From the NCBI GenBank assembly GCA_012862575.1, contig BLSF01000006.1, positions 248,001-312,000 of the forward strand: a stretch of 64,000 bases of DNA, in the 5' to 3' direction. Each line of letters opens with the position of its first letter. Positions within the stretch are counted from its first letter, which is position 1. This DNA is from Parietichytrium sp. I65-24A (Eukaryota; Sar; Bigyra; Thraustochytrida; Thraustochytriidae). A program made the position numbers and the translations under genes. Positions 16,274-59,907 of this stretch are shown here, piece after piece. The notes beneath the pieces are model-generated. The model saw only the letters and a list, made by a program, of their open reading frames with translations, had not been told where the DNA came from and did no database searches.

Positions 16274-19084
16274 TTATTTCGGCAGCGGAACATCGCTTGT
16301 GCTCTTTGTGGTAGGCATCACTTCTGATGTTTTGCTATCTGTTACAGTTGGTGCCGGCTTCGCTCCATTTGAAGCAGTCACCTGGTTCATGTGATGAAGA
16401 GCTGGGGAGGACTGGCCGTTCGAGATTTCCATTGGTTGCGAAGTCGAGGCAGTTTTCACAGTTGGCGGCGGGTTAATGGTCGCTGCCGCCTGGGCAGCTG
16501 GCGTCACGGAGCTTCCGCCATTTTGTAAAGGTGGAGTCTGAACTGGCGCGGCAGAACCAGTGGTTAGAGGCTTCATTGACGCTGTCCCACTCGCGACAGT
16601 TGGCGTCACGGAGCTTCCGCCATTTTGCAAAGGCGGAGTCTGAGCTGACGCGGCAGAACCAATGGTGAGAGGCTTCGTTGGCGCGGCAGAACCAGTGGTG
16701 AGAGGCTTCGTTGGCGCGGCAGAACCAGTGGTGAGAGGCTTCGTTGGCGCGGCAGAACCAGTGGTGAGAGGCTTCGTTGGCGCTGCCCCACCCGCGACAG
16801 GCCCAGGCTTAGGCGCAGCTCCCACCGTTGGATTTGCTGTTGGCGCCACCGAAGGCATCGTTTCCTTTGCAATACTCGAAGGCTCCGAACTCGGAGAAAC
16901 TCGTGGTTGTTGTACATTTGGCGCGGGCATAATATGTGATTGCGGTGCTTCCTGTCGAGGAACTGCGGACGAGGTTGTCATGGGAGCAGTTTGCGATTGT
17001 AACGAAGCCACGGAATCAGACTCTGGTTTGGCGGGCGACCCTGCCACATGACCAACACCAGACTCCGTGGCAGTATCCTGCCCGAGGCCCTCATTTCGCT
17101 CTTCCTCCAATGCCTTCTGCAATTCGCGCTCTTTCAAACGAAGCTCTCTCTCCTGGGCTTTTCGAAGTTCTTCCTGCTGTCGCTTTCGCTCGAGCCGCTC
17201 TGCCGCCCTGGCTTTTTGCAACTCTTCTCGCCTCTTGTCCTCCTCCTCGCGCAGTTTGCGCTTCTCCTCGATAGCAATCACTCTGTTGGACCGCTTTCTT
17301 GGAGCAACCTGGATGCGATCGAGTTTCTCAGCCCTCGCCTGAGCTCGACGAATATTCTCAGCCTTTTGCTCCATCACACTAAGAATCTCTTTCAATATCT
17401 CCAGCAACGTCTCGTTCTTTCGCTCGTTGTAGTCCTCAAGCTCCTTGACAACGGCTTGGAGACCTTCAAGGTCTTGGGCTACCAATTTCCATTCCTTTGG
17501 CGGAACATCAGGGCCATTCACAACAGGGCGAGCAAGCCCATTCTTGCTCTTTCGCTTGCGAGCTGGACGAGATTCAGTCTCCTCTTGCTCGTCGCTTTCT
17601 TCATCCTGCTCACTTGCTTTGCCCCTCCCACGCTTTCCTCTCTTCTTTGCACTCGCGGTTTTCTTTTGCTTCTTGGATGACTTGGTTCCCTCCTCCTCCT
17701 CCTCGGCTGCCATAGACTTTCTTTTGGACGACGCACGCAAAAGCTCCTCTGCTTGCTCTTGGTCGAAGCGCTGCACCTGGGTCCTCTGCCTGGAACTCGT
17801 CCTCCTTCCAAATTGCAATTCAAGCTCTTTTGCAAGATCTGCATCGCCAGCCTTACGACTTTTTGCTCCTCGCTTTGGAGTCTTCCTAACTGGCTCCGGG
17901 CTTTTCTCTTCAGGCTGCTTCTCTTCTTCACCAGCCGCTGCTGAAGCACCATTCTCTTCGGTTTTCAGATCCGGCTCTTTGGCGACGCTTTCCTCCTTCA
18001 CTTCAGCTTTGACAGCGGCGTCCGATTTTTCTTCATTGGCCTTCTCTGCGTCATGATCCACCGAGGAGGCCTCTTTTTTCTCTACGCTGCTCTCTTGCTT
18101 TTTCTTTTCCTTCTCCTTCAGCTCCAAGTACTTGGCATATTCTTTTTCAGTCTGGAGGGTCTCACGGTAGATTCTGCAGTCTTGGTTGAACTGTGGAAAA
18201 TACCAATAGCGGCGACCCAAATGGTCCTCCCCGATCGGGTCTTGCCTAAGCGACTCGGGCACAAAGGCTCTTAAAGTTTCCCACACAGACTCCTCAGGAT
18301 GCCCATGGGCTCTCCACTCACACAATGCTCGGAGCAACGCTAGTCGTTTACTTGGAGCGATGGTGAGGTAGCCGTCGGGGCCGTCAAAGGGGAGGATGCT
18401 ATCGACCTCCTTCAGTTCTTCTTCGAGCTGAGCCTCAGCAAGCTGCGCAGTTTCATCAGCAAGCCGCTTTCTGCGCTCTCGAGCGGTTTCTTTCTTTTGC
18501 TGCGGTTCTCCCCCTGCTGTGCCTCCATTTCCCTCAGACTCGTCTGGCTTTTCGGTCTCTCCATCCTCGTCTTCATCCTCGTCATCTAGTTCCAAGTCCG
18601 CCTCCGTCGGTGCAGGCTTGCGAATTGGAATCGGCCCAGTCAAGAGGGGCTCCAATAGATCATCCAGCTCCTGAATATTAGAGCGGAACCATTCCCAGTC
18701 CACCGAGTCGGCATCGAAGCCTTCTTCGTTGTTGTTTTCGAAAACCTCCAGGTCATGCGCCAAGTTCCTCCGGTCAACGACCCACATTTTCACCCTCTCT
18801 GAGAGTCGCTGCGTCCACCACTCAAATGGCTGTCTTACCGCACCGGCGCCTCTACTGACTTTGCGGCTCTCGGCAAGCTCCTTTTCGTCCATCAAGAGCA
18901 CCGAATGCACGCAGGACAAAACCTCGCTAGGAGCAGGGTTTCGCAGACCACTTTCCAGCGTTGCCAGCGTGAACAACGGCATCTTAAACTTGTTGCTGGA
19001 CGCTAGCACCCACAACAGCAGCGCCACTTCCGGAACCTCTGCCATCTCCGCCACATCTCCCTCCTGCTCGTTCACCAGCGCCAT
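16274..19084 (-). CDS. DDT/WHIM-domain chromatin-remodelling subunit
   Basis: 936 residues from the ATG at 19082-19084 (the frame extends nine codons further, but only from TTG). The N-terminal 65 residues resemble a DDT/WHIM1 helix bundle (LLLWVLASSNKFKMPLFTL). Around residues 225-300 lies the WHIM region, with SKRLALLRALCEWR and the hallmark DPIGEDHLGRRYWYF. This motif packs on ISWI-type ATPases and is found in Acf1/WSTF/RSF1-like and plant DDT proteins. An acidic Lys/Glu region follows, then nuclear-localisation-like basic clusters (KKQKKTASAKKRGKRG), a Glu/Arg coiled coil at about residues 540-690, and a disordered Ala/Pro/Thr tail with tandem repeats. It is probably a nuclear accessory subunit for nucleosome spacing. 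No PHD finger or bromodomain is seen. It diverges from the EH-domain gene. Confidence 0.82.
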   Translation of the reverse strand: MALVNEQEGDVAEMAEVPEVALLLWVLASSNKFKMPLFTLATLESGLRNPAPSEVLSCVHSVLLMDEKELAESRKVSRGAGAVRQPFEWWTQRLSERVKMWVVDRRNLAHDLEVFENNNEEGFDADSVDWEWFRSNIQELDDLLEPLLTGPIPIRKPAPTEADLELDDEDEDEDGETEKPDESEGNGGTAGGEPQQKKETARERRKRLADETAQLAEAQLEEELKEVDSILPFDGPDGYLTIAPSKRLALLRALCEWRAHGHPEESVWETLRAFVPESLRQDPIGEDHLGRRYWYFPQFNQDCRIYRETLQTEKEYAKYLELKEKEKKKQESSVEKKEASSVDHDAEKANEEKSDAAVKAEVKEESVAKEPDLKTEENGASAAAGEEEKQPEEKSPEPVRKTPKRGAKSRKAGDADLAKELELQFGRRTSSRQRTQVQRFDQEQAEELLRASSKRKSMAAEEEEEGTKSSKKQKKTASAKKRGKRGRGKASEQDEESDEQEETESRPARKRKSKNGLARPVVNGPDVPPKEWKLVAQDLEGLQAVVKELEDYNERKNETLLEILKEILSVMEQKAENIRRAQARAEKLDRIQVAPRKRSNRVIAIEEKRKLREEEDKRREELQKARAAERLERKRQQEELRKAQERELRLKERELQKALEEERNEGLGQDTATESGVGHVAGSPAKPESDSVASLQSQTAPMTTSSAVPRQEAPQSHIMPAPNVQQPRVSPSSEPSSIAKETMPSVAPTANPTVGAAPKPGPVAGGAAPTKPLTTGSAAPTKPLTTGSAAPTKPLTTGSAAPTKPLTIGSAASAQTPPLQNGGSSVTPTVASGTASMKPLTTGSAAPVQTPPLQNGGSSVTPAAQAAATINPPPTVKTASTSQPMEISNGQSSPALHHMNQVTASNGAKPAPTVTDSKTSEVMPTTKSTSDVPLPK
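16649..16780 (-). repeat. 33-bp tandem repeat, four copies, in coding sequence
   Basis: Four almost identical 33-base units encode an 11-residue repeat (AAPTKPLTTGS) in the tail of the WHIM-domain protein. A larger, older duplication of about 100 bp (units near 16500 and 16604, sharing GGCGTCACGGAGCTTCCGCC) flanks it. The near identity points to recent expansion. Confidence 0.9.
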
Positions 19085-20299
19085 TTTCCACGCACGCAAC
19101 ACGGCTCTCAAGTGCTCTCAAAGCAGAAGATTTCAAACCTTCCGCAAAACTCTGACCGTGATCAGCGCAAGCGCACTGCGCAAGCAGGTTGGCGCTCGTG
19201 CGCTGGTATGGTATCAGTAAGGGAAGACTGGCAGTCCGCAATGGGGACAGTGGAGATGGTGCTCGAGTACCCAGCGCGGACACTTTGGAGGCAAGGTGTT
19301 TTTTGAATTCGCGGTGAAGGTAGTCAAGGTAGTCGAGGTAGGCGATAGAATAGATAGAATGGGATCGGAAGGAACGAAAATGAAGCAAGAGAGGGACCAA
19401 ATGAATGAAATCTTGCTCACTGCATGGATCTTGTCTTGTCTTGATTGTCTTGTCTTGATGTCTTGTTTACTTGTATGTGTTCCAATCTCTGTATGGATGA
19501 TCCTGCACTCAGGGTCATCAGGAGACTCAGGAGCTTTAGCTTGTTCTGCTGGTTTTATTTTGTGTTGACGGATGGCATTCTTCTCGTCTTTGCTGCTGAA
19601 AAAGAAAAAGAGAGACTGCAGAGAAAAGTGGTAAAAACTTCCGATGAGTTCAACCTGCGATGATTTCTGAACAAGGGAAAGTGGCTATTGGTATCTTTTT
19701 CACCGGCAGTGATCGCGCAGCGAATGAACGAGCGAGTTGCAACACGAGCAACGCAGAATTTCAAAGTGGTGCTTCGAGGCTGACAAGAAGACACCGATAC
19801 ACAGATGTGAATCAGAGATCAGATCAGGCAGTCACATCTGTCAGTGTCAGTTGAGACATCGCAGTGTAGTTCAACATCAGACATTCCATGAGAATTCATG
19901 AATTCGTATTTCGCACCTCGCAGCAATTTGCAATCAACAGAATGTCACGTTCAGTAAATCAACAGCCTCTCTGTTTGTCTGAACTGTTTTCGTCAGAATC
20001 CATCGCGTTGTGAGTTTTCTTTCAATCTTGAAATCATGTCTAATTTTTCATTGAACAAACAAATTGACTTCGCTGTCAATCAATGAATTTGTCATTCCTT
20101 TTGGTTTTCGTTAGTAAGCTATCGTCGCAGAGCTAATCCATCTTGTACCCTTCCAGCTGGAAGTGTGCGTCCTCGCTAGTGTACGCGCACGTACGTCTTC
20201 AAACCCGCCAATTGCTAAGGCCCACGACGCGGTCGTGACAGCCATATCTACTGCTGTTTCCGGAGTGAAGAACGCAAAGAGAGAGAGATCGGGAAGTGT
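19085..20299. other. Divergent intergenic region, 1.2 kb
   Basis: Shared upstream region of the WHIM and EH-domain genes. It contains TCTTGTCTTGATTG-type repeats near 19430-19470 and GAGAGAGA right before the EH gene start. No gene or RNA is supported. Confidence 0.55.
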
Positions 20300-39595: not shown

Positions 39596-42500
39596 TCACG
39601 CCCTTGCATCGTGTACCATGTTCCACAGCTGCTCGCTGCTGTCCGTCTTTTGCCTTTGTTGGTACCTGCGGAAGGCCGCGCCAACGGCGAGAACACTGAG
39701 GCCTGCAGCCCCAGCAATGCCTGCAATCATAGCAGTGCTCGAGCCGGAGTCCGACGAATCAGAGGAAGCCTCGTAGCTGGCGCCGAGTACGCTGACATTA
39801 TCATCATCTGATTTCTTGAGCTGTTTTGCGAGCTCCGCAGCACCAGCGCTTGTCTGCAACATCTCTTGGATCTTGCCCTGAATCACGTTGTTGATGCGAT
39901 AAATCACAACCAAATTGCCAACTTCGTCCGCGAAAGCACGTATCATAAACAGCTTACGACCGCATTGGACGTTGCTTAGGCTAGTTTTGCGCCCGACAGT
40001 GCGTTCCAATGCCTCGCATACTTCAGACAGGAAACTTGTGGTAGTGTGCGTGGCCTCGTTAAAAACTATCGAAGAAAACCGAAGGTCATTGACCTTGTAG
40101 CTCTGCGCGACCTCTACTCCGTTCACATGCACCGATTCTCCCATCGACGAAAATGACGGAAGCGCCTGGAATATCGAAGTGGCGTCTGATGCAACCTGAC
40201 TGGACCCTGTATTTGCTGCGCTTGCGGATGCTTCGTTTGAGTCGCTGAAGATGGCGTAAAACTTGATCTTGTAGAGGACTGCGTGACTCACAAGAGCGCG
40301 CGAGCGCTTGGGCGCATCGACTGCTGTGCTCTTCCTGTCCAGGCCCTCTCCCAGCGCACGGGTCTCCCGTTGCTGCCTCAACAGCCTGCTACTTGGGCAA
40401 GCGTAGCCAGCATGCTGATTCTCTCCACCCGCGGTGTAGGTATCATCTTCGCAGGTGTAAAGGTTGCATATTCCCGTGTCAAGATCCAATCCCCAGACCG
40501 TGCAAGGGGTGCCCTCGCTCTCTATGAATGTGCATAAAAGCCCGCAAGTCGCGAGAAGAGATTCATCATCATCCTGATCATAGAGATCTGGGCAACCTAC
40601 TTTGAGATTGATTGCGTAACCGGTTCCTGATTCGACCCATGATCCATCTGTGTCAAACTGGCAACCGCAATATTCGTCTGCTTCGAGGTCCTGTTTGTTA
40701 AACTGAAAGTTTGCTTCACAAGTAGGGAGTTTGTTCCGATGAATAACTGGCTCCTTACCCGATGGGCATTCCGGAAAGCAATAGCTTGGTTCGGGGTCTG
40801 TTGAAGTCGGCCACGCAGTTGGCCAAGCTGTAGGCCAAGCCGTCGGCATTGAAGTTGGGGCTCCCGAGGTGGTCGGCTTTGGAACTGTTGGGGTTGGAGC
40901 AACTGTTGGCATCATTGTTGGTTTCCCCGTGTGCGGAGGCTGTGACTTGGTTGGTGCCTTTGATGGCGTATTTGTTGGCGCCTTGGTGGGTGTTTTGGTA
41001 GGGGAGTCTGTGGTAGGGGAGTCTGTTGGCTTGCTTGTGGGAGCTTTGGTGGATGGTGAATTTGTGGGATTTGAAGTGGTCGCGACTGGGGATGGGGTTG
41101 GGGAATCCGTTGGGTAAGTCGTGACGGGAGCTTTCGTAGGCCCAAAGGTCGGCTTCTGCGTCGTTGGAGTGGCTGTTGGCCATTGAGTCGGCGTACCTGT
41201 AGGAGAGCTCGATGGGGAGGCTGTTGGCGTGGAAGTGGGCAAATTAGTGTGTGGCCAGACATACTTGAGGACCGCGCTCATGCCTGTCTCTGCTTTGCAT
41301 GTGAGCATTGCAGAGCACGTCATCGGCTTGCTGTATTGTATGAAGCGGAGTGACTTTGTGAAGAGAGGGCTATGAGATTCCGCAGGAAATTCGATCGTGT
41401 TGTTGCAAAGCGTGATTGTCTCGGGAAAGGCAATGTAATCCACCCAACTATCTTCGTTCCCGGCCTCGCTTTGGTACTGCAAAGTCACACCAGATTGGCA
41501 CGTGGACAATGAGGTCGGCAACGAATCCAGCGAAGATACGCAGCCGCTCAGTCCTGCGCTGATTTTGGCGTAGAAGGAATCAACCGCGTCATCCCATCCA
41601 AATTCTTCAGCCTCGTCGGTGCAAATTTTGATCTCCGTTGCATCCGAGGACTGCAGCTTGCAAAGCGCCGACTCGAGGTTTCCAGTCTTGAAATTTTTGA
41701 TGCATTGATTTGTGCTGATGAACGGAAAGGAGTACTCGGCGCAAAAGTCTTTGTAGCAGTCATAGAGAGAGGCTTGGCTAACTCCCTCGCCGCACAGCTT
41801 TTGCGCCATCTTGAGGATCTCGTTTTGTTCCCACAGATGCTCTACACCATCGCAGGCTTCCACGACACCAAGGTGATGCTGATAAGAGTTGATCATAGCC
41901 TCCGAAGAGTAGTCCGTGAGCGAGTTGGTGGCGCAGAAACCGTTCACCTCAGCGCGAGAGGTGCTGTACAGGTTGTTTGGCTCCACGAGAGCGTCAATGT
42001 TGAGACGGTAGTTTCCATACTGGTTCTTCTTTGGATTCTTGGTTCCTGTACATCGGATCTGGGCTTGTATGGAGGTTGCGGAATCGTATGCTAGCCACAC
42101 AATGTCAAATAGCCCAGATTCGGTGACGCGGCTCCAGCCGGTAACCATGGCAGTGTTCTGGCCCTCACCGCTGTATGTCCAGGAGTCATCATAGTCGGAC
42201 CCTGCAATGCAATCGGATGCAGTGATGGAGTAATTTCCAGTGCTGGTAACCATTCTTGCCTCACGGATGACACCACGCTCCTCCTGCCGAATCCAGAATG
42301 CAAAGGTGTCTGCCTGGTACATGAGCAGCCAGGCTTCGCTTGCACTAGAGCTTGGCTGGCACGGCGAACCGTCCTTCCAGAATGCCGAGTACGACCCTTC
42401 CTTCCATTTGCACAAGTTGCCGTCGTGGTCGTAGGTTTTTTGGCACGCGCTTTTCGTGATTGCACACTTTTCGTCGACGTCACGAGCGTCGCAAAGCCTC

Positions 42501-43342
42501 CAGGAGGTGTAGGTTCCATCGAAGGAGATGCAGTTTGGATCACCGTAGCAAGCGCAGGTGAGACAACACGAGGATTCTACACTCTCCTTCTCGAATGCCA
42601 ACTCGAGCACTAGCTTTGTATCTTGAAGAAGGTCCTCAGAATGCATAGCCTCGCATCGATCGGACGAAGTCATGACACCGTATTCAGGACAAAAGGCGGC
42701 TTGCAGACCTGCAGTTCTGGAGTGCGACGCTGAGAGGTCAACCGTCTGGCAGGCCTCGGTTTGCCGTGTGTCGCTCAGCGGGCAGCAGCTGGCAAATTGT
42801 GGAATTGGCACGTTCTCGTAGTTGTCAACAGCAGTGAGCATCATAGCATCGGTTCCGCAGAGTGGGGCAGCCCCGCATGTTTCAACCTCAATGCTGCTGA
42901 ACATACTATCAATCCAAACTTGCTCCGCTCCCAGCGCATTGGCCAGACCTTTCTCAAAGTCGTCCACGTTGTCGTCAGAAAAATAACTTGCATCCATCTC
43001 CATGTAGGCACGGCCTTCGACCACGCCTGTCGTTGCCGAGGAGGACTGAGCTGCGGTCACCTCATCCGGAAGGACGTATCCCCGAAAGCCGCACTCCGCA
43101 GTCTCGATGTCGTACACACAGTCAAGGCCGCCACATAGATCCGGAAGCCCGTTGTAGTCGCTGCAAGCGGAGCAGAATCCAGTCAAGGTCCCCACGGAGA
43201 GTCTGTAGCCCCATGCACATCCCGACGCATCAGCCTTGCATGATGCGGTGGTCGAGTGGTCAGCGCAGTCCGCGGCGATGCGGTTCACCAGAGTGGCAAG
43301 CGTGCCGCCGACTCCGGCCACCCACAAGCTCTTGTAATGCAT
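39596..43342 (-). CDS. Large secreted surface protein: Cys-rich, VWD-like, Pro-Thr linker, membrane anchor
   Basis: 1248 residues from ATG 43340-43342. A probable signal peptide (LWVAGVGGTLATLV) is followed by a Cys-rich ectodomain. At about 258-330, CACYGDPNCISFDGTY starts a von Willebrand factor D-like module (typical: CxxxGDPHxxTFDG) with many paired cysteines. Residues about 700-850 are a Pro-Thr linker (PTxxPT units with Ser, Ala, Lys), expected to be heavily O-glycosylated. A second Cys-rich module follows (about 855-985). Then comes a Cys-poor alpha/beta region (about 1015-1170, SEA-like in feel), one Gly/Ala-rich membrane helix (about 1196-1218) and a short basic tail. It is likely a plasma-membrane or wall-linked adhesion protein. 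Its C-terminal anchor resembles that of the LNR protein at 6045-7267. PT linkers of this type are common in stramenopile surface proteins. Confidence 0.85.
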   Translation of the reverse strand: MHYKSLWVAGVGGTLATLVNRIAADCADHSTTASCKADASGCAWGYRLSVGTLTGFCSACSDYNGLPDLCGGLDCVYDIETAECGFRGYVLPDEVTAAQSSSATTGVVEGRAYMEMDASYFSDDNVDDFEKGLANALGAEQVWIDSMFSSIEVETCGAAPLCGTDAMMLTAVDNYENVPIPQFASCCPLSDTRQTEACQTVDLSASHSRTAGLQAAFCPEYGVMTSSDRCEAMHSEDLLQDTKLVLELAFEKESVESSCCLTCACYGDPNCISFDGTYTSWRLCDARDVDEKCAITKSACQKTYDHDGNLCKWKEGSYSAFWKDGSPCQPSSSASEAWLLMYQADTFAFWIRQEERGVIREARMVTSTGNYSITASDCIAGSDYDDSWTYSGEGQNTAMVTGWSRVTESGLFDIVWLAYDSATSIQAQIRCTGTKNPKKNQYGNYRLNIDALVEPNNLYSTSRAEVNGFCATNSLTDYSSEAMINSYQHHLGVVEACDGVEHLWEQNEILKMAQKLCGEGVSQASLYDCYKDFCAEYSFPFISTNQCIKNFKTGNLESALCKLQSSDATEIKICTDEAEEFGWDDAVDSFYAKISAGLSGCVSSLDSLPTSLSTCQSGVTLQYQSEAGNEDSWVDYIAFPETITLCNNTIEFPAESHSPLFTKSLRFIQYSKPMTCSAMLTCKAETGMSAVLKYVWPHTNLPTSTPTASPSSSPTGTPTQWPTATPTTQKPTFGPTKAPVTTYPTDSPTPSPVATTSNPTNSPSTKAPTSKPTDSPTTDSPTKTPTKAPTNTPSKAPTKSQPPHTGKPTMMPTVAPTPTVPKPTTSGAPTSMPTAWPTAWPTAWPTSTDPEPSYCFPECPSGKEPVIHRNKLPTCEANFQFNKQDLEADEYCGCQFDTDGSWVESGTGYAINLKVGCPDLYDQDDDESLLATCGLLCTFIESEGTPCTVWGLDLDTGICNLYTCEDDTYTAGGENQHAGYACPSSRLLRQQRETRALGEGLDRKSTAVDAPKRSRALVSHAVLYKIKFYAIFSDSNEASASAANTGSSQVASDATSIFQALPSFSSMGESVHVNGVEVAQSYKVNDLRFSSIVFNEATHTTTSFLSEVCEALERTVGRKTSLSNVQCGRKLFMIRAFADEVGNLVVIYRINNVIQGKIQEMLQTSAGAAELAKQLKKSDDDNVSVLGASYEASSDSSDSGSSTAMIAGIAGAAGLSVLAVGAAFRRYQQRQKTDSSEQLWNMVHDARA
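40795..41241 (-). repeat. Pro-Thr codon repeat region
   Basis: A degenerate repeat of PTxxPT codons in the surface protein, including three adjacent AWPT units near 40801-40848. Length variation between alleles is likely. Confidence 0.8.
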
Positions 43343-44897
43343 TCTCTGCCGTGCACTGTCCGTCGCCCTTGCGTGATCTCGTCGAGTTCAGGAGCCTCTT
43401 CGCGCAGTTGGCTCCTTGTTCCAGGCTTTGTGTTGCACTTCCCCTGGCTGGTTTTGGCTTTACTCGAGTCACACTGCACACTGCTATCCGCACAAAGACC
43501 TATGCCGCCCTTGGACCGACAGTGTGACAGGCATGCAACGAAAGGAGCCTACCTCAGACAGCGGAAAGAGTATTGTTTACTCACTGTCAAACTGATCGAC
43601 ATCTGAGCGAGGGAGATATCCCTTGGGCGAGTGTGTTTTTTGGGCGAGCCAACACCTTGCTCCTAGCTTCATGCTACGCCATGTGCCCTCCTTCTCTACT
43701 CGCATTGCGGTGAGAGGTGTCTTCTCGTTGTGTACTCCGCCATTCTGAAGGAATAGTACCTTACAGTAGTCCACTTTCCTGGGGCCATTTAATTTAGTTG
43801 AATATTGATTTTATTATTATGGGCAGCCGCAGTCGAATATTTGGCCAATGTGTCAATGCACAAACACTTCCTCTTGCCATTCCTCCCTCGCCGTCATGCG
43901 TAAATTCAATCATCAAAAGATGTTGTTTATTGAAGAAGAAGGCTTCTTGAACGATCTAATTCTTTCACCTCACTGGACTTACCTCTTCCGCGTAGCCCTC
44001 TTTAAGCCTTTATACCTGCGTGCATGGCGTGCATTCTTACTTATGTGGATAAATACCGCTATCGATAGTTTGCACACATTTTTGCACCGAATATATATCC
44101 AGTAAGGTGCTATGGAGAAGTCTTACCTGGACCGAGATTACGTGCGCTTTCCGCCCTTATCGGTCCCACGCTCGCCAGCGAGTGGAATGGTTTATTTCGA
44201 ATTTCGCAATCTTGTAAATCTTGTTTATAAATAGAAACATTGATGACTGTGACTGTGAGTCAGCGCCACGCGTCTCTCGGCTCGGCAGGGCCATTCTCTT
44301 CGGATATTTTGACTACGTGCCCGCCCAGGACGTGGCTTCATCCTGAGCCGGGCGAACATGCCTCCGTTCGCATGAGGGAATCGCAAATTCGAATTTTGAG
44401 AAATCATGAGATCGCGCCGTGCTGCAGGCATAGTCCCGGCTAGTGGGAGAGTAGCTTGCACAAATGGTGTGCAGCGCGGCGTTCATGATCATGTCGGACG
44501 AGATGGGAACGGCGTGGAGGGGGGCTGACTTTTGCTGCGGAAGATATGCTTGCTTTTCCTACAGTGGCCAAGAACACAAATTTGTGGAATTTGGGATTTA
44601 TACTTCTTCTCCGGCGGCTGTGCGCAGACTTTGATGTTCCCAGCTATCCAAACTACTCGAGAGTATGTTATAGCCATGTATAACAAATAGGCTAGTAGTC
44701 GTCACTCGAAACGGATTTGTTCAGATTTGAATTTTTCGTTTCGATTGTTTGCCTCGCAGGAGAAGAGCTGTTCTCCTTTGTTCTTAAATAAACAGCTTCA
44801 AGAAGAGCTTCTTGCTGTTGTTGTTTGGTGTACAGTTGGTGGGTCATCGAGTTTCTTAAATTTGTTCATTGGTGGATTTTCTCTTCTATTATGTTAT
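43343..44897. other. Intergenic between surface protein and transposon, 1.55 kb
   Basis: Only short frames without domains. It holds the surface-protein promoter. No RNA gene was recognised. It ends at the left inverted repeat of the transposon. Confidence 0.5.
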
Positions 44898-44925
44898 CCC
44901 GACCCAGAAAAAAACTCCGGCTTTT
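44898..44925 (+). repeat. Left terminal inverted repeat of transposon
   Basis: Reads CCCGACCCAGAAAAAAACTC then CGGCTTTT. The first 8 bases match the right end perfectly. The rest matches with two small gaps and a few changes. Confidence 0.8.
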
Positions 44926-44971
44926 TCTACGCGGTTCACAGAAGTAAGCCGTGTTCTTCGATCAATATTCT

Positions 44972-47900
44972 TTACTGTTCAAATGCCCCCGTGCCCACCC
45001 GCCTCCCCGTCTCCACGTCTTCATTTGCATGCAGGGAATCATTCGTAAGTTCGTCTTCTTCCTCGGTGTTGTTAAAATCGAGTGTTTTTGGATGCTTCAA
45101 ACGTCTTCTCTTCCGCCTTGATGCCATTTCCGCAGACGATGGCAGAGCTCCCGCAACATTGACCTTTTGAGGAGTATGCTCCTCTCCTGAACTAAACGGT
45201 GCCCCATATTTGCATTTGGAATTCATGCAAGGACTCAAACCCTTCTCCGGGAAGCCGCCAAAAACACTTTCCAACCGCGAATCATGAAATACTTGAAAGC
45301 AGGACTTGTTGCCCCACATCTTGCGAGCGCATATGCACAATGGTACTCCCCCACATTCTTTGCACCAATGATTAGTAGCAAACGCTCTCCGGTGTGAAGC
45401 GTGGCCGATACCTTCGTTTCTCTCGCAGTAGGTGCAACACAGCCAGCACGACATTTTAGCAGGTTGCCCAGAAGAATCTTTTGGGATTGCAGATGGCGCA
45501 TGAGGTGATGCAACAGAAGATAATTGTCGCAGGAAAGCGGCATCTTTGGAGTTGAGCACGCTCGCTCTCGAGGCTGCAGAGCTCTTGCACTTCAAAATAC
45601 TCTCACTGACAGCCTCTACGCGCCGCTTGTGCTCCAAGTTGTTGATTGGGTCAAAGACTTGATTGTCGAGCATAGGAACCACTTTGATTTTATCTCCCTG
45701 CACCGGCGCGGTCACGCTCTGAACAGGCGCGGTCACGCTCTGAACAGGCGCGGTCACGCTCTGAACAGCCTCGTCGGTGATCCTCCAAAGATAATGACCG
45801 AGAATTGTTGAGTTCACGCTCAACAAGCAACGTTGCAGCGATGCCCCAGTGTTCAATTTATTGCGAAAGTCACGTGCTGACCTCAGATTGTCCAATGTGC
45901 CGTCTGCCGCCATGCCTAAAATAGATAGCGTGCGCCTTGCATTGAGACAAGCTGTCAGTATAACTCTCAGAAGAAGACGGGCAACTGGTGAGATTTGGAA
46001 GGCTTTAAATCGAACGGCATTCAACATCTCCGACTTCTGATGTGTATCCCACTTCGTTATGTTCCAGTGGTGAATTAGCCTCGGAACCAGCCTTCTTGCT
46101 GGTGGAAGAAGAGTTCCCCTTCTCCTTACCTCGTTTAAGATCCCGAGTGCAAGGGCTCGCTGATGTTTTATATGAATAGCTTCAATTCTCCAACCTGTTT
46201 GGAAAACCGACAGGTCCTTGTCACTCGGCATGGGCACATTTGTGTCCCACACCCACTTCATATAAGTGTCGCCCACAAAACCGACCACAAATGCCAAATG
46301 GGCAATCAGCACAGGCGCAACTCGAACCCGAACAACCCGGATGATTTTCCTTACGCCATTGCTTGGAATCGCGCTCGCATTAATGTAAAAGACGTCCTGA
46401 ACGCCACTGGCGGTATGTTGCAAAATTTGACAGCGATGGGATTTGTCTGGGACGAGCGATGTGAAACGCTGCCGGACATTGTCCCAGTCCTGAGAGTGTG
46501 GGTCCAACACGACAACCGAGTACGTACCGAACTTGTTTGCAATCATCTCCTGTTCAGCGACAGTTTTCGTTGAAGACATAGTCTTAATCTCCAATGCGGC
46601 GGTCACACATCCCCAGGGCCGGTGTTCCGTGGACCGTGCGTGGTTTCGCGCTTTTTCCAAGGCATTCATGATTCTCTTGCGAGCATCTGGTGTTAAATTC
46701 GTGTCTTGCAGTCCATGTATGATAAAATCTCGAGAGAACATGTCGACACTGGGTAGTGCAGCTTCACATTCGTTAGGTTGGAAAATGATGAGACCATCAA
46801 CGGAGGTGCAGTGACTCGGAATTCCCGCTGCATGCATGAGACCAAATTCTCGTACGCTACCCACGTGTGCAACCAATTTCCTCGAAAGAAGCCAGTCTGG
46901 GAAAATCGAGACCACGTTAGCTTCGTTCACGGAACCGATTTGTAACGACTCCATATCGCGCAGCGGGTGCAGAAGAGAAGCGGCGAGACAGTTGGTCAGC
47001 ATGTTTTTAGACGTGGAATTTAGGATGAGTGAAACAAGCATAGCTTTGTTCTTGCTCGACAGATTCCCTATTCCAAAGCTCTGTGCGATACGTTTCAAAT
47101 TTTCGATTGTGTGCGACTCCAGATAAGATTGTGTAAGCGGACCAGTGAATACCTTCTTCAACTTGACGTTGCCCTCTCGAACCTCAATGCAAATGTCCTC
47201 CTTGATCTGCAAGGTCTCCATCAAGACTCTTGTGCTCTGAGCAACAAGGGTGGGGACATACTCGCTGGGTCCGGGATGCTCTAATCCCAATAAACGCAGG
47301 TTAATGCACAATGCGCTCAGAACACGCACCAGCGCAGTGCTTGTCACTCGCCCAAACCTCATCACAAACCAATCTTGACTCCGTTGGGTCATGGTAAGCA
47401 GCACCGACCTTTGCAGAGTCATGTGCCAAACATCCTCTGCAACTTGTTCGGCATATTCTGCGGAAAGTTCTTCAAATGGGACATTTTCTGGAAGATATTG
47501 CCTTGCTGGTGCAATAGGTTCCCATACGCTCTGGTGGGAGTAAGCAGAGCGACTGTGAACGCAGTATGTCCATTGATTCGGGCGAACTCGAGGATCACTA
47601 GAGTGCAGCAAGGCCACGTTCTTCTTGCCATCAGCAAACGCAAGCGCATACACTTTAGAATCTCCGAGCCTTCGCTCGGCCCAATAAGCTGCCCGTGGTT
47701 GATCCGGAGATATAGTTCCCCACTCAGGAAGGTTCTTAATAGAAGTCGGAGGATAAGCAAATGGGAAGCCACAAGACCTCCTGTGTGTTCCAAAAACAAC
47801 AATATTCTTGTCGCGTAGGGATTCCGTGAGCCGTGAGGAATTGTAGCCCCTGTCAACGGCCAGAGAAAAAACACGTCGTTCTGCTGGGGCCCATGTATCT

Positions 47901-48553
47901 CGCTCCGTTAAAATCGGATCAAGAGTGCGCAGCATCTGCTCATCATTTGCCTCGGATGAAGGATACGCCCGAATAGTCTCAGACAGGATCAGCCCAGACC
48001 CTACCGAGCCACAACAATCAATATGAACGCCAGCCCCCTTTTCCCGCAAGTATTGATGCATGAAGGCATATTTTCTCACCACCAGCGACGAAAATCTGAC
48101 GAGATCCTCGTCAAGACTCAGTGTTGTGGCGCTCGTTAGAAACATTTTGCAAGAAAATTTTGCAAATGCATCCAGAGCGTTATTCACTGTGAGATAACCA
48201 GCGCTCATGGTGGATGGTACTGCATAATCAAGAGCCGTTTTGCGAGCATTATTGCGCAGCCTTCTTGAAGAGGTCTCCACCATTGGACCTTTCCGCTTGC
48301 TCCCATGGTCACTTCGAGGCCAGATGCAACCCATCAGTTGACGGAATCGAGCCTCTGTTAGAATGCTGCCTTTTGAAATGTTTGATTCAAATTCTTCAAA
48401 AAAGTCCTTCACACTGAAAGAATGAGCGCAGATGTGGAGGATATTGGTCACGAGCAATGAAAATTCAAATGTGTCAGTTCGTGGGAGCTTTTGCTTTGCC
48501 AAATTCACTGTGACCAACTGCAAAAGATGATCGTATATTCCTGTTCCATTCAA
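44972..48553 (-). CDS. piggyBac-like transposase with internal SAP and YqaJ nuclease domains (main part)
   Basis: 1193 codons are given; the frame is open from 48595. Residues are numbered from the TTG codon at 48551-48553. DDE core: LSLDED (Asp148), LAVDRGYNSS (Asp234) followed by GTHRRSCGFP, then ALAFADGKKNV, and finally HHWNITKWDTHQ (Asp836), the equivalent of piggyBac YNxxxGGVDxxD. These are the usual piggyBac steps, but about 450 residues are inserted before the last Asp. The insert holds RSQDWFVMRFGRVTS (391-405), a SAP-like helix pair (476-512), VNEANVVSIF, TSVDGLIIF (Asp586) and ALEIK (Glu655, Lys657). This is the YqaJ/lambda-exonuclease pattern with D-(E-x-K) metal ligands. C-terminally come three SVTAPVQ repeats, a Cys/His domain (1036-1090, CKECGGVPLC... 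CFQVFH) as in piggyBac, and a basic RRKRRR signal. Confidence 0.88.
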   Translation of the reverse strand: MNGTGIYDHLLQLVTVNLAKQKLPRTDTFEFSLLVTNILHICAHSFSVKDFFEEFESNISKGSILTEARFRQLMGCIWPRSDHGSKRKGPMVETSSRRLRNNARKTALDYAVPSTMSAGYLTVNNALDAFAKFSCKMFLTSATTLSLDEDLVRFSSLVVRKYAFMHQYLREKGAGVHIDCCGSVGSGLILSETIRAYPSSEANDEQMLRTLDPILTERDTWAPAERRVFSLAVDRGYNSSRLTESLRDKNIVVFGTHRRSCGFPFAYPPTSIKNLPEWGTISPDQPRAAYWAERRLGDSKVYALAFADGKKNVALLHSSDPRVRPNQWTYCVHSRSAYSHQSVWEPIAPARQYLPENVPFEELSAEYAEQVAEDVWHMTLQRSVLLTMTQRSQDWFVMRFGRVTSTALVRVLSALCINLRLLGLEHPGPSEYVPTLVAQSTRVLMETLQIKEDICIEVREGNVKLKKVFTGPLTQSYLESHTIENLKRIAQSFGIGNLSSKNKAMLVSLILNSTSKNMLTNCLAASLLHPLRDMESLQIGSVNEANVVSIFPDWLLSRKLVAHVGSVREFGLMHAAGIPSHCTSVDGLIIFQPNECEAALPSVDMFSRDFIIHGLQDTNLTPDARKRIMNALEKARNHARSTEHRPWGCVTAALEIKTMSSTKTVAEQEMIANKFGTYSVVVLDPHSQDWDNVRQRFTSLVPDKSHRCQILQHTASGVQDVFYINASAIPSNGVRKIIRVVRVRVAPVLIAHLAFVVGFVGDTYMKWVWDTNVPMPSDKDLSVFQTGWRIEAIHIKHQRALALGILNEVRRRGTLLPPARRLVPRLIHHWNITKWDTHQKSEMLNAVRFKAFQISPVARLLLRVILTACLNARRTLSILGMAADGTLDNLRSARDFRNKLNTGASLQRCLLSVNSTILGHYLWRITDEAVQSVTAPVQSVTAPVQSVTAPVQGDKIKVVPMLDNQVFDPINNLEHKRRVEAVSESILKCKSSAASRASVLNSKDAAFLRQLSSVASPHAPSAIPKDSSGQPAKMSCWLCCTYCERNEGIGHASHRRAFATNHWCKECGGVPLCICARKMWGNKSCFQVFHDSRLESVFGGFPEKGLSPCMNSKCKYGAPFSSGEEHTPQKVNVAGALPSSAEMASRRKRRRLKHPKTLDFNNTEEEDELTNDSLHANEDVETGRRVGTGAFEQ
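45705..45767 (-). repeat. 21-bp tandem repeat, three copies, in transposase
   Basis: Three identical 21-base units encode SVTAPVQ three times in the linker before the Cys/His domain. Identity of the copies indicates recent expansion. Confidence 0.92.
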
Positions 48554-48914
48554 CCACCATGCAAGGTGGGCTGTGAAGGAATGCTTGTTGTCTTTCTAAT
48601 ATTTCTGAGGACGAAAATTGCATTTCCAATGTCTCAGCGTTCTTTCGAATCTCATCTAAACCTTTCAAATCACTGCCCAAGATGTCCTCGTCAACAGACA
48701 GTTCAAACGAATCCGGCACATCCATTGGCGCCCATTGTCCGCTCACAAACTCCCCTGCTTCAAGAGGACCTACCTCGTAAAACAGAGGGTCGCACACCTC
48801 CTCGTCTTCCGAATCATCTGAATCAGCAAGAAGTTCTGAACCACTCGGGAATCCACCGAGTTCGTCCAGCCAGCTGGCGACTCCGCCTGTCGGCTCTCCT
48901 TGTACTGCAGCCAT
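48474..48914 (-). CDS. Acidic N-terminal part of the transposase, different frame
   Basis: 146 codons from ATG 48912-48914. Residues 1-110 are acidic (ADSDDSEDEEVCDP, LSVDEDILGSD), like the N-termini of piggyBac transposases. The frame overlaps that of the main part over 48474-48595 and is offset by one base. No GT-AG intron of the size used in this genome fits the overlap. Either one base was gained or lost, or the ribosome shifts +1. Which of these applies cannot be settled from the sequence. Confidence 0.7.
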   Translation of the reverse strand: MAAVQGEPTGGVASWLDELGGFPSGSELLADSDDSEDEEVCDPLFYEVGPLEAGEFVSGQWAPMDVPDSFELSVDEDILGSDLKGLDEIRKNAETLEMQFSSSEILERQQAFLHSPPCMVVEWNRNIRSSFAVGHSEFGKAKAPTN

Positions 48915-49486
48915 GATCGATCTTGTTCGCTACAGCATACCAACAGTCCTCGAGTACACTCTCTCTCCGCGGATTTCGAGAAGAAGCTGAACAGATCGCC
49001 ATATCTTTTTTCTCCAAGTTCATGTGATCCTCGAGAAACGCTCTAGCTAGGCGAAAGTGAAAGGGGGTACTCTAACTTCAATGTTGACGTGCTCTCCTGT
49101 CTCTCCTGGCATTTTGCATGATAAACCGTTTGCGGTAGTTCTCCCGCCTTGAATATTCTTGACTGACATTCTTCCTCACATAAAATTGTTCACACCCCAT
49201 GAAGCACGCCTTCAAATTTCAGAAAACTAACCTCTCCTCGCGGACAAACTGATAAAATGGAGCATAAATGTCATGAATGATAGATAATTGGAGACTCTTG
49301 ACTAAAATTAGAAGGACTTATCTTACATTGTGCTGTCTTCCACCTCTTCCACCCCACAAATTATTCTGAGAGGACGCCATCGACCAACCAAAATTTGAAA
49401 ATTTTGAAGATGTTTTTGAGCTGATTCCTTTTGTTCGTTGTGAGTAGTGTAAATTTTAAATTTGAGACGTCCAAAATAAACTCCGG

Positions 49487-49514
49487 CCAAAAGGCGGAGT
49501 TTTTTAGGGTCGGG
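49487..49514 (-). repeat. Right terminal inverted repeat of transposon
   Basis: On the minus strand it reads CCCGACCCTAAAAAACTCCG then CCTTTTGG. Just inside, AAACTCCG and CGGAGTTT (49478-49501) form a short hairpin, a feature lacking at the left end. Confidence 0.8.
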
Positions 49515-49777
49515 GTAAGCTTCTTTCTGTGATGAGGGAGCTCGTAAAATGTCTGATCTCTTCTCTTGTCCTGTCCTCTGTCCGGTTTATTTGTCTTATC
49601 AATCAGATGTACGTGTACGTACGTACTCACTAGAAAGGCTTTCCTTCACACGCACTTCTGTACTATTCGTGAACAGCCCACCCAGACTCTGCTTCTGGAT
49701 GCTGTTTTCTGCCCCAGGAGCAAAGACAGTGAGACAGCATGATGTTATCCACAGCCAGCCAGTATGTTCATTCAGTG

Positions 49778-58491: not shown

Positions 58492-59907
58492 TCACGGATT
58501 TTGCGATGCGCCCTGTCGCCGAGATGCTGTCATTTCAATACTATCGGCCAGGCCAAACTCGGACCGGTGTTCATCTTCATAAAACATGTCTCGATCAAAA
58601 GGATCGTCATCATCGTCGAAGTCGCCTTCACTTGCCGTCGAGGAGGGCACCTGCAAGTAATCCGCTCTGGGAACAGGCCTAAACCACATCGCGACAATGA
58701 TGTAAAATGCTATACTAGCAACTTCCTTGGAGACAAACTCCACGTAATGAAATTTGAAGTTGACGGAATTGCCGACCAGAAAGGCAATCACTCTGGTGAA
58801 ATAAATGTAGCACAAAACCAAAAAGTAGAATCGGCGGAACTGACGCAACTTTGAGAGCTCCACGGCGTACTTGCCGTTATTTTTGCTCTCCTCAAGACGG
58901 TCTTGCAATCTCTGAATGTTGGAAAACAGCGGGAGGGCAACTACGAAGCAGCATATGATGTCTATAAGCTGAAAAGTATTTCGCCAGTTCATAAACGCCG
59001 TGCTTCCGCGCGGAAGCTCTTCGGCAACAATCAGGGCGATGTTGGCGATCAACTGCAAAGGAAGGATTGCGATCAATATGCGTTTCTCGCGATCATCCAG
59101 CGCAGGGCGAACGAGGGACCATCCGGTGCCGAGCAAAATTACTACCACAAAGAACATGAGGGCTTTCAGGGCCTTCAAGAAATGCGACAATGCATCCCAA
59201 AGCATTCCGGTTCCGTACACTTTGACATAGTGCTGATCAATAGATGTTGCGAACCCGGCAAAGACCTTTAGGATCATAAACGCCGTAAGGAGATGATGAA
59301 TTTTGTGCACGTTTCCTTGCAGAGCATTCTTGCGTAGAAGCTGGACCCAAGCAACCAAGAGGCCAAGGTCAACGAGCGCAAAGAGGAGAATGACCACCGG
59401 AGGAGTTGACCCGGCACTGAGAAACCCATCCGGGTTGCGCATGTGGGCGGTGAACTCGAATGACACTGCGGCGTCGGGTCCGCAACTGACGTAGAAAATC
59501 TCATATATGCCTTCGTTATCGCTAGTGATGACAAAGTCCTTGGTGGCCTCTTTCTCCCCGTGAGGCTTGAACTCAATCGTCGCCAGAACGTCGAGGTCTT
59601 TGTCGTCAAAAGGGCAAGTTCTCTCCGCGGTCTCGTAATTCTCCTGCACTACTGTGTGGTACTTGTCTAAGATACTCTGTTCACTCGTGGCTCGAACCAC
59701 CATAAACCCGGCTCGCGTCTCGCCGACATTTTCAGCAAACTCAAAATTGCTCACCTGCACATTTAGCGTCCCCTTCTCCACAAATGCGAACGCTTCCACC
59801 GAGTACACTCTCCTGCTGTCGCCAGTCGCCTTTAGCTCGACCACCGCCGCGCGGCATTGCAGCGCTGCGAGCTGCAACGCGAGCGCCAGCCAAGCCCCCG
59901 GCCGCAT
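58492..59907 (-). CDS. Lung seven-transmembrane (GPR107/GPR108-like) protein
   Basis: 471 residues. A signal peptide (MRPGAWLALALQLAALQC) and a lumenal beta-rich domain of about 145 residues precede seven membrane helices between about 165 and 425, followed by an acidic cytosolic tail (DDDDPFDRD). The layout and the RNPDGFLSAGSTPP...LLFALVDL entry, HKIHHLLTAFMILK and NWRNTFQLIDIICC segments match PF06814 (GPR107/108 in animals, CAND-type in plants). Members reside in Golgi and endosomal membranes. A lumenal beta-barrel of the GOLD type was described for the animal protein. Start ATG 59905-59907. G-protein coupling is unproven for the family, so trafficking is the safer role. Confidence 0.9.
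   Translation of the reverse strand: MRPGAWLALALQLAALQCRAAVVELKATGDSRRVYSVEAFAFVEKGTLNVQVSNFEFAENVGETRAGFMVVRATSEQSILDKYHTVVQENYETAERTCPFDDKDLDVLATIEFKPHGEKEATKDFVITSDNEGIYEIFYVSCGPDAAVSFEFTAHMRNPDGFLSAGSTPPVVILLFALVDLGLLVAWVQLLRKNALQGNVHKIHHLLTAFMILKVFAGFATSIDQHYVKVYGTGMLWDALSHFLKALKALMFFVVVILLGTGWSLVRPALDDREKRILIAILPLQLIANIALIVAEELPRGSTAFMNWRNTFQLIDIICCFVVALPLFSNIQRLQDRLEESKNNGKYAVELSKLRQFRRFYFLVLCYIYFTRVIAFLVGNSVNFKFHYVEFVSKEVASIAFYIIVAMWFRPVPRADYLQVPSSTASEGDFDDDDDPFDRDMFYEDEHRSEFGLADSIEMTASRRQGASQNP

Follow-up and report, generated by a model that had tools for sequence, protein, structure and literature searches.

A piggyBac-like transposase gene of Parietichytrium sp. I65-24A that very probably holds a YqaJ-type nuclease within its catalytic domain

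The 64,000-nucleotide stretch of Parietichytrium sp. I65-24A DNA analysed here (contig BLSF01000006.1, positions 248,001 to 312,000; called the window below and numbered from its first letter) contains an open reading frame (ORF) of 1193 codons, at 44972-48553 of the minus strand, whose translation reads like two enzymes. The locus raises the question whether a piggyBac-type transposase and a YqaJ-type nuclease form one protein here, where the second lies within the first, and what such a protein might do. A first-pass annotation, made from the letters alone, had named a series of blocks in this frame, and all of them were found in the order it gave: the piggyBac blocks LSLDED (residue 145), AVDRGYN (232), GTHRRS (255) and DGKKNV (308), the YqaJ-type blocks QRSQDW (390), RFGRVTS (399), SVDGL (584) and LEIK (654), the last piggyBac block WNITKWD (830), and Cys/His residues at 1036-1090. 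The single frame spans both domain junctions without a stop. The probability that a given frame stays open for 1193 codons by chance is about 5e-25 at the stop frequency of the neighbouring non-coding DNA. Judged from the sequence, the architecture, a piggyBac-like transposase with a YqaJ-type nuclease inside, is very probably real. The element is best explained as one copy of a piggyBac-like cut-and-paste DNA transposon in an intron-poor eukaryote.

The check by Pfam models that had been proposed together with this reading found neither family. DDE_Tnp_1_7 and YqaJ were not matched by the whole protein at E ≤ 1 or by five pieces of it at E ≤ 10, and no other transposase family in Pfam was matched at these thresholds. 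Three reference transposases match DDE_Tnp_1_7 strongly. An NCBIfam scan gave nothing relevant. Purpose-built profiles found both parts. A profile of four piggyBac proteins (T. ni piggyBac, piggyBat, PGBD3 and PGBD4) gave 14.9 bits with the whole protein and 17.7 bits once the YqaJ stretch had been removed; none of 1000 shuffles went beyond 5.6 bits and none of 217 natural ORFs beyond 1.0. One match covered residues 123-259, running from a point ahead of the first Asp up to GTHRR, and a second one the C-terminal cysteine-rich domain (CRD). Residues 130-290 aligned with piggyBat at z = 7.5, none of 500 shuffles being as good, and their score of 63 was above the best of 217 natural ORFs (52). 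When gaps were set looser, residues 130-325 were reached by none of 1000 shuffles. Thus the stretch containing D148 and D234 stood above 500 shuffles against piggyBat and above 1000 with the four-member profile. None of 20,000 shuffles of the protein contained a pattern covering the first two Asp motifs, which both of the reference transposases tested do contain; this pattern and the nuclease motif-I pattern described below were both composed after the sequence had been seen. The block WNITKWDTHQ resembles T. ni YNQTKGGVDTLDQ by eye and is not significant alone. For the Cys/His domain, the comparison with PGBD4 gave z = 7.7, a score reached by none of 1000 shuffles. The domain was not significant against T. 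ni piggyBac or PGBD3, and hhalign to the T. ni CRD gave a probability of 6; the piggyBat stretch used ends before its CRD. Overall the protein shares with T. ni piggyBac, piggyBat and the PGBD proteins the LSLDE block, D-x-x-Y-N-S...GT-x-R, W/Y-N...D and a C-terminal CRD. It differs from them in carrying about 510 residues in place of about 20, in having no GG before the third Asp and in lying below Pfam detection, and its element has no exact TTAA on either side.

The profile used to look for the nuclease was built from 28 exonucleases of phage or bacterial-genome origin, 27 of them distinct and lambda's protein entered three times. All five of its members that were scanned were Pfam YqaJ. 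This profile gave 13.1 bits with the whole protein, 15.9 bits with the nuclease piece and 16.6 bits when the SAP-like stretch inside the piece was cut out; the best control, among 500 shuffles and the window's other ORFs of at least 150 residues, reached 4.8 bits. The motif-I pattern at residue 390 occurred in none of 20,000 protein shuffles and was found in 24 of the 28 profile exonucleases. In a 17-row alignment with 16 exonucleases, Q390, W395, R399, T404, G540, E544, K657 and Q709 fell in invariant columns. By motif and in the same order, R399, E544, D586, E655 and K657 correspond to lambda R28, E85, D119, E129 and K131, which we take to be catalytic and phosphate-binding residues; SxDG was aligned by hand, MAFFT having set it a few columns off. 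The part resembles lambda exonuclease, LHK-Exo and YqaJ (PF09588) in motif I (QRSQDWFVMRFGRVTST), G-x-x-x-E, S-x-D-G, E-x-K, the Q helix and the strand and helix pattern that follows. Two expansions set it apart from these, one of about 90 residues that separates motif I from the Glu and includes the SAP-like helices, the other of about 60 between SxDG and ExK; it is also embedded in a transposase, and its score lies under the Pfam cut-off.

Single searches pointed the same way at low significance. With the inserts cut out, the best PHROG match was phrog_149 (E = 0.035), and the sole match in the Protein Data Bank (PDB) was LHK-Exo (E = 0.44). Against 50,697 phage records this piece matched two records at E ≤ 10, and the best was an annotated exonuclease beside an erf gene (E = 0.009). 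With the inserts kept, the only PHROG match was to a family of unknown function on the SAP-like stretch (E = 0.11). The whole protein matched nothing in the phage records at E ≤ 1 and only an unrelated PDB entry at E = 1. Alignment to the exonuclease family with hhalign gave a probability of 53 and E = 1.4e-4 over residues 388-414 only. A structural model of residues 375-772, built with the family alignment, had a pLDDT of 52. Its top three of 206 PDB fold matches were LHK-Exo, lambda exonuclease and LHK-Exo again, with probabilities of 0.96, 0.92 and 0.95 and E from 0.16 to 0.28, and the fourth match had a probability of 0.08. Because the alignment holds relatives of LHK-Exo and lambda exonuclease, this fold match is agreement and not independent proof. 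A full-length model made without an alignment had a pLDDT of 34 and was meaningless, and its PDB matches were disregarded.

The first-pass annotation had also placed a SAP motif in the protein. A stretch like a SAP helix pair lies inside the nuclease, between motif I and the Gly...Glu motif. Its match was to Rho_N and below the family cut-off (E = 0.019 for the piece and 0.079 for the whole protein), and the same residues 478-515 drew weak matches to DUF3475 (0.07), TAF (0.099) and a PHROG of unknown function (0.11). The SAP assignment is therefore suggestive only, as read from these residues.

Where within the transposase does the nuclease sit? According to the available text of PMC7351741, the catalytic domain of T. 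ni piggyBac spans residues 263-457 and its insertion domain 372-433, and the hairpin is touched by V414 and L416, within the insertion domain, and by Y439 and N440. The stretch VYALAFADGKKNVALLHSSD (residues 301-320) can be aligned with the closing part of the T. ni insertion domain, KKNVALLHSS at 310-319 corresponding to KMVYLLSS, and WN at 830-831 corresponds to T. ni YN; this alignment was made by eye and by motif and carries no significant score. About 510 residues, of which the nuclease makes up some 360, separate the LLHSS strand from WN, as compared to roughly 20 in T. ni piggyBac. Since the nuclease starts about 70 residues past the insertion-domain-like strand, it looks like an insertion into a loop and not like a replacement. 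Thus the earlier proposal that a nuclease had replaced or grown out of the insertion domain holds for its position between the second and third Asp; a replacement is not supported, as the last strand of that domain seems to be retained. On these motif positions the nuclease probably occupies the loop behind the insertion domain, on the way to the equivalents of Y439 and N440.

The ends of the element, which the first-pass annotation did not contain, enclose the entire gene with both domains. Read inward, they are TTAC-CCCGACCCTAAAAAACTCCGCC (from 49518, minus strand) and TTAT-CCCGACCCAGAAAAAAACTCCGGC (from 44894, plus strand). Their local alignment score was 21, as compared to a maximum of 15 in 5000 shuffles, and the 12-mer TTAYCCCGACCC is restricted, within the window and with at most one mismatch, to the two element ends. 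Terminal inverted repeats around the whole gene argue for one transposon and not a nested pair. As in piggyBac, the ends start with CCC next to TTA and the left end contains a palindrome. An inverted repeat as good as this quasi-palindrome occurred in 15 of 2898 overlapping background stretches of 60 nt. The available text of PMC7351741 describes a left-end palindrome in T. ni piggyBac, at bp 17-33, that is bound by a dimer of the CRD; the quasi-palindrome at bp 13-37 is the same kind of site. An exact TTAA duplication was not found around this single copy: three of the four bases fit on each side, and the base adjoining the repeat differs on both. The mismatches may reflect decay or a different target.

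The coordinates are collected in Table 1.

Table 1. Features of the element and of the protein that it encodes (positions in the window)
Feature	Position	Strand	Description or basis
Whole element	44898..49514	minus	about 4617 bp, from CCCGACCC to inverted copy GGGTCGGG; terminal inverted repeats
Left-end terminal inverted repeat (5' of gene)	49489..49518	minus	outer bases TTAC
Left-end quasi-palindrome AAACTCCG...CGGAGTTT	49478..49502		bp 13-37 from end
Acidic ORF	48474..48914	minus	146 codons, upstream, in a different frame from the main ORF; no Pfam match
Transposase ORF with nested nuclease	44972..48553	minus	1193 codons, start TTG
piggyBac-type catalytic core, residues 123-330	47564..48187	minus	D148 (LSLDED), D234 (AVDRGYNSS...GTHRR), insertion-domain-like strand LLHSSD; profile and motif matches
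Lambda-exonuclease/YqaJ-type nuclease, residues 388-745	46319..47392	minus	R399, G540xxxE544, S584xD586G, E655xK657, Q709; profile, alignment
SAP/Rho_N-like helix pair, residues 478-515	47009..47122	minus	inside nuclease between motif I and G..E motif; weak Rho_N match
Last piggyBac block WNITKWDTHQ, residues 830-870	45944..46066	minus	presumed third Asp D836; motif order, N/D/Q matches by eye
C-terminal Cys/His domain, CRD-like, residues 1036-1090	45284..45448	minus	shuffle test against PGBD4
Right-end terminal inverted repeat, read inward	44894..44925	plus	outer bases TTAT (ATAA on other strand)

The acidic ORF upstream of the main frame probably encodes the N-terminus of this transposase, and an intron, a frameshift or an error may account for the change of frame. 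An intron search at this 5' break gave many candidate joins and singled out none. With this ORF lying upstream in another frame, the true N-terminus of the transposase is probably outside 44972-48553. Within the main ORF, between the catalytic part and the CRD, a 21-bp unit is repeated 3.4 times at 45698-45768 and encodes VQSVTAP repeats.

Taken together, profiles, residues and shuffles give good support to one protein in which a YqaJ-type nuclease lies between the second and third catalytic Asp of a piggyBac-type core. A number of results weigh against this reading. Neither part reaches the Pfam cut-off. The catalytic region was not significant against T. ni piggyBac alone, and there was no significant similarity to PGBD3, nor to PGBD4 outside the CRD. 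A two-member profile of T. ni piggyBac and piggyBat gave the cut piece 2.2 bits, and two of 1000 shuffles scored higher. Under looser gaps against piggyBat, the whole protein and a larger cut core were each reached by one of 1000 shuffles and residues 200-325 by two of 1000. The third Asp, D836, is assigned by motif only, and the GG that usually precedes it is missing. On the nuclease side, the part without motif I scored 3.9 bits with the inserts cut (3 of 1000 shuffles were higher) and 0.8 uncut, so most of the profile score comes from motif I; the fold model is of low confidence and was built on an alignment that includes relatives of lambda exonuclease. The flanks are TTAC and ATAA instead of two TTAA, a second copy was absent from the window (best tblastn E of 2.1), and the frame of the 5' part differs, so the copy may be inactive. 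No relatives of the whole protein or of its parts turned up in viral contigs, bacterial and archaeal genomes or plasmids, and none of the whole protein in phages; as no eukaryotic collections were among those searched, this has little bearing on how common the architecture is.

Three other accounts of the locus were weighed against these data. The DDE part might belong to another eukaryotic transposase superfamily that shares DxxYNS...GTxR and a Cys-rich tail, as the missing DDE_Tnp_1_7 match, the lack of significance against the T. ni catalytic region and the missing exact TTAA duplication would allow. We regard this as improbable: no other transposase family was matched in Pfam, the core at 130-290 matches piggyBat and the Cys/His tail PGBD4, each above all shuffles in those tests, and the ends start with CCC beside TTA and include the left-end palindrome. 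Slightly harder to maintain is a domesticated host gene that retains old transposon ends. Only one copy lies in the window, both active sites look intact, and the flanking TTAA is imperfect as in an old insertion, but recognisable inverted repeats on both sides and the upstream frame break fit a transposon copy better. That a YqaJ gene of another element was nested, or joined by an assembly error, inside a piggyBac gene is very improbable. The free-standing YqaJ ORF of ISL2EU transposons could have been a donor, and the codon use of the nuclease part differs a little, its GC content at third codon positions being 0.55 as compared to 0.45-0.47 in the two piggyBac catalytic parts. However, the frame is open over both junctions, the terminal repeats surround the whole gene, and words common to the two stretches of 120 nt around the chosen junctions, direct or inverted, reach 7 nt at most.

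If the architecture is accepted, the nuclease fold might still be catalytically idle, or do no more than bind DNA as an outgrowth of the insertion domain, gripping the flanks or the target with the help of the SAP-like part. This is the strongest of the rival accounts, though we think it rather unlikely. Lambda and LHK exonucleases work as toroidal trimers, an arrangement hard to combine with the piggyBac dimer. According to the available text of PMC7351741, piggyBac touches the flanks of its target DNA with the insertion domain, which would suit a gripping role. On the other hand, the metal-binding residues and the Arg that binds the 5'-phosphate, if we have their roles right, are kept, and an idle domain would be expected to lose them. 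Residues of both active sites are present, D148, D234 and D836 (the third by motif only) for the transposase and R399, E544, D586, E655, K657 and Q709 for the nuclease. We judge the chance that the nuclease works to be slightly better than even, and a fused architecture with a working nuclease of some kind seems moderately likely.

What might a working nuclease do in a transposase? Lambda-type exonucleases require 5'-phosphate ends and digest 5'→3'. Excision by T. ni piggyBac proceeds, as described in the available text of PMC7351741, from a nick to a hairpin with TTAA, opening of the hairpin to a 4-nt TTAA overhang, transfer, and clean religation of the donor. In the scheme that we propose, the DDD site would nick, form hairpins and open the ends in the piggyBac manner, and the nuclease, from its place at the insertion domain, would sit over the flanking DNA. 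After hairpin opening both the donor and the transposon ends would be expected to bear a 5'-phosphate. The nuclease could load there and digest in the 5'→3' direction. At the donor site 3' single strands would then be laid bare, and the break would be channelled into homologous repair with the sister copy as template. In this way the element would be put back and gain in copy number, in place of the seamless TTAA religation of ordinary piggyBac. Of the possible roles for the nuclease, donor-end resection seems the likeliest, though it is tentative and rather doubtful. The next most likely roles may be flap trimming after integration and a purely DNA-gripping one. The full proposal, a lineage with a two-site transposase, is rather unlikely; in it the DDD site would cut the element out, and a built-in, working 5'→3' exonuclease would resect the donor ends and force homologous re-copying.

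The common view of cut-and-paste transposons is that the host repairs the donor site, and their gain in copies is usually credited to host repair. If the proposal were true, a cut-and-paste transposon would replicate by steering repair with its own protein, the opposite of the scarless excision of piggyBac, and a transposase that brought its own resection nuclease would turn donor repair into a step of the element itself. To our knowledge, this would be a new way for a DDE transposase to acquire a whole second enzyme, within one of its loops, and it would bear on the use of piggyBac as a genome tool.

Other mobile elements combine some of these components. YqaJ ORFs travel with eukaryotic ISL2EU transposons (PMC4482050, PMC9179366), in which, by the available text of PMC4482050, the YqaJ ORF is separate, the transposase is of the PHIS type, the target is A|AT|T, and the role of the ORF is called unknown. 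The company of YqaJ ORFs and ISL2EU suggests that such a nuclease may serve transposition. The element described here is likewise a eukaryotic cut-and-paste element carrying a YqaJ nuclease. Unlike in ISL2EU, the nuclease is fused inside a piggyBac-like transposase in a single ORF; the two are set apart here by the published description of ISL2EU and not by a comparison of transposases. Teratorn, a piggyBac-herpesvirus fusion, also joins a piggyBac-like transposase with viral genes in one mobile element. It contains a whole herpesvirus-like genome with separate genes, and the available text of PMC5822658 describes no nuclease fusion protein. PMC13289751 contains both piggyBac and YqaJ, and in its available text such domains are merely filtered out. 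No piggyBac-YqaJ fusion protein was found in the literature searched, which left out Repbase and most subscription journals. The fused architecture thus appears to be undescribed, with one copy seen. A two-row alignment query found no piggyBac relatives in viral contigs, and DDE_Tnp_1_7 had no match in any of four bacterial and 14 control genomes, which makes that scan uninformative.

The genes of the window are eukaryotic and intron-poor, and include those for MTHFR, a myosin, an EH-domain protein, Cu/Zn SOD and a GOST/CAND6-7 membrane protein, among others. Scans of the window with Rfam, at gathering scores, and for tRNAs gave nothing. The element is adjoined by an ORF of 1248 codons (39596-43342, minus strand) without a real Pfam match, the only hit being a PT disordered repeat at E = 0.33. 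An ORF of 945 codons at 16274-19111 (minus strand) contains tandem repeats of 33, 66 and 102 bp (16495-16805) and matches the KIAA2026 helical domain below the cut-off. At 58492-59907 (minus strand) lies the gene for the GOST protein, which has seven transmembrane segments and a CAND6/7 N-terminal domain.

Among the public records, seven bacterial ones (from Streptomyces, Oceanobacillus and Shewanella, for example) carry 2481 bases 100% identical to phage lambda, and three of the lambda-bearing contigs are about 48.5 kb long, the size of lambda itself. These look like contamination of public assemblies with lambda DNA. A Nanosynbacter metagenome-assembled genome contains a sequence 97% identical to lambda.

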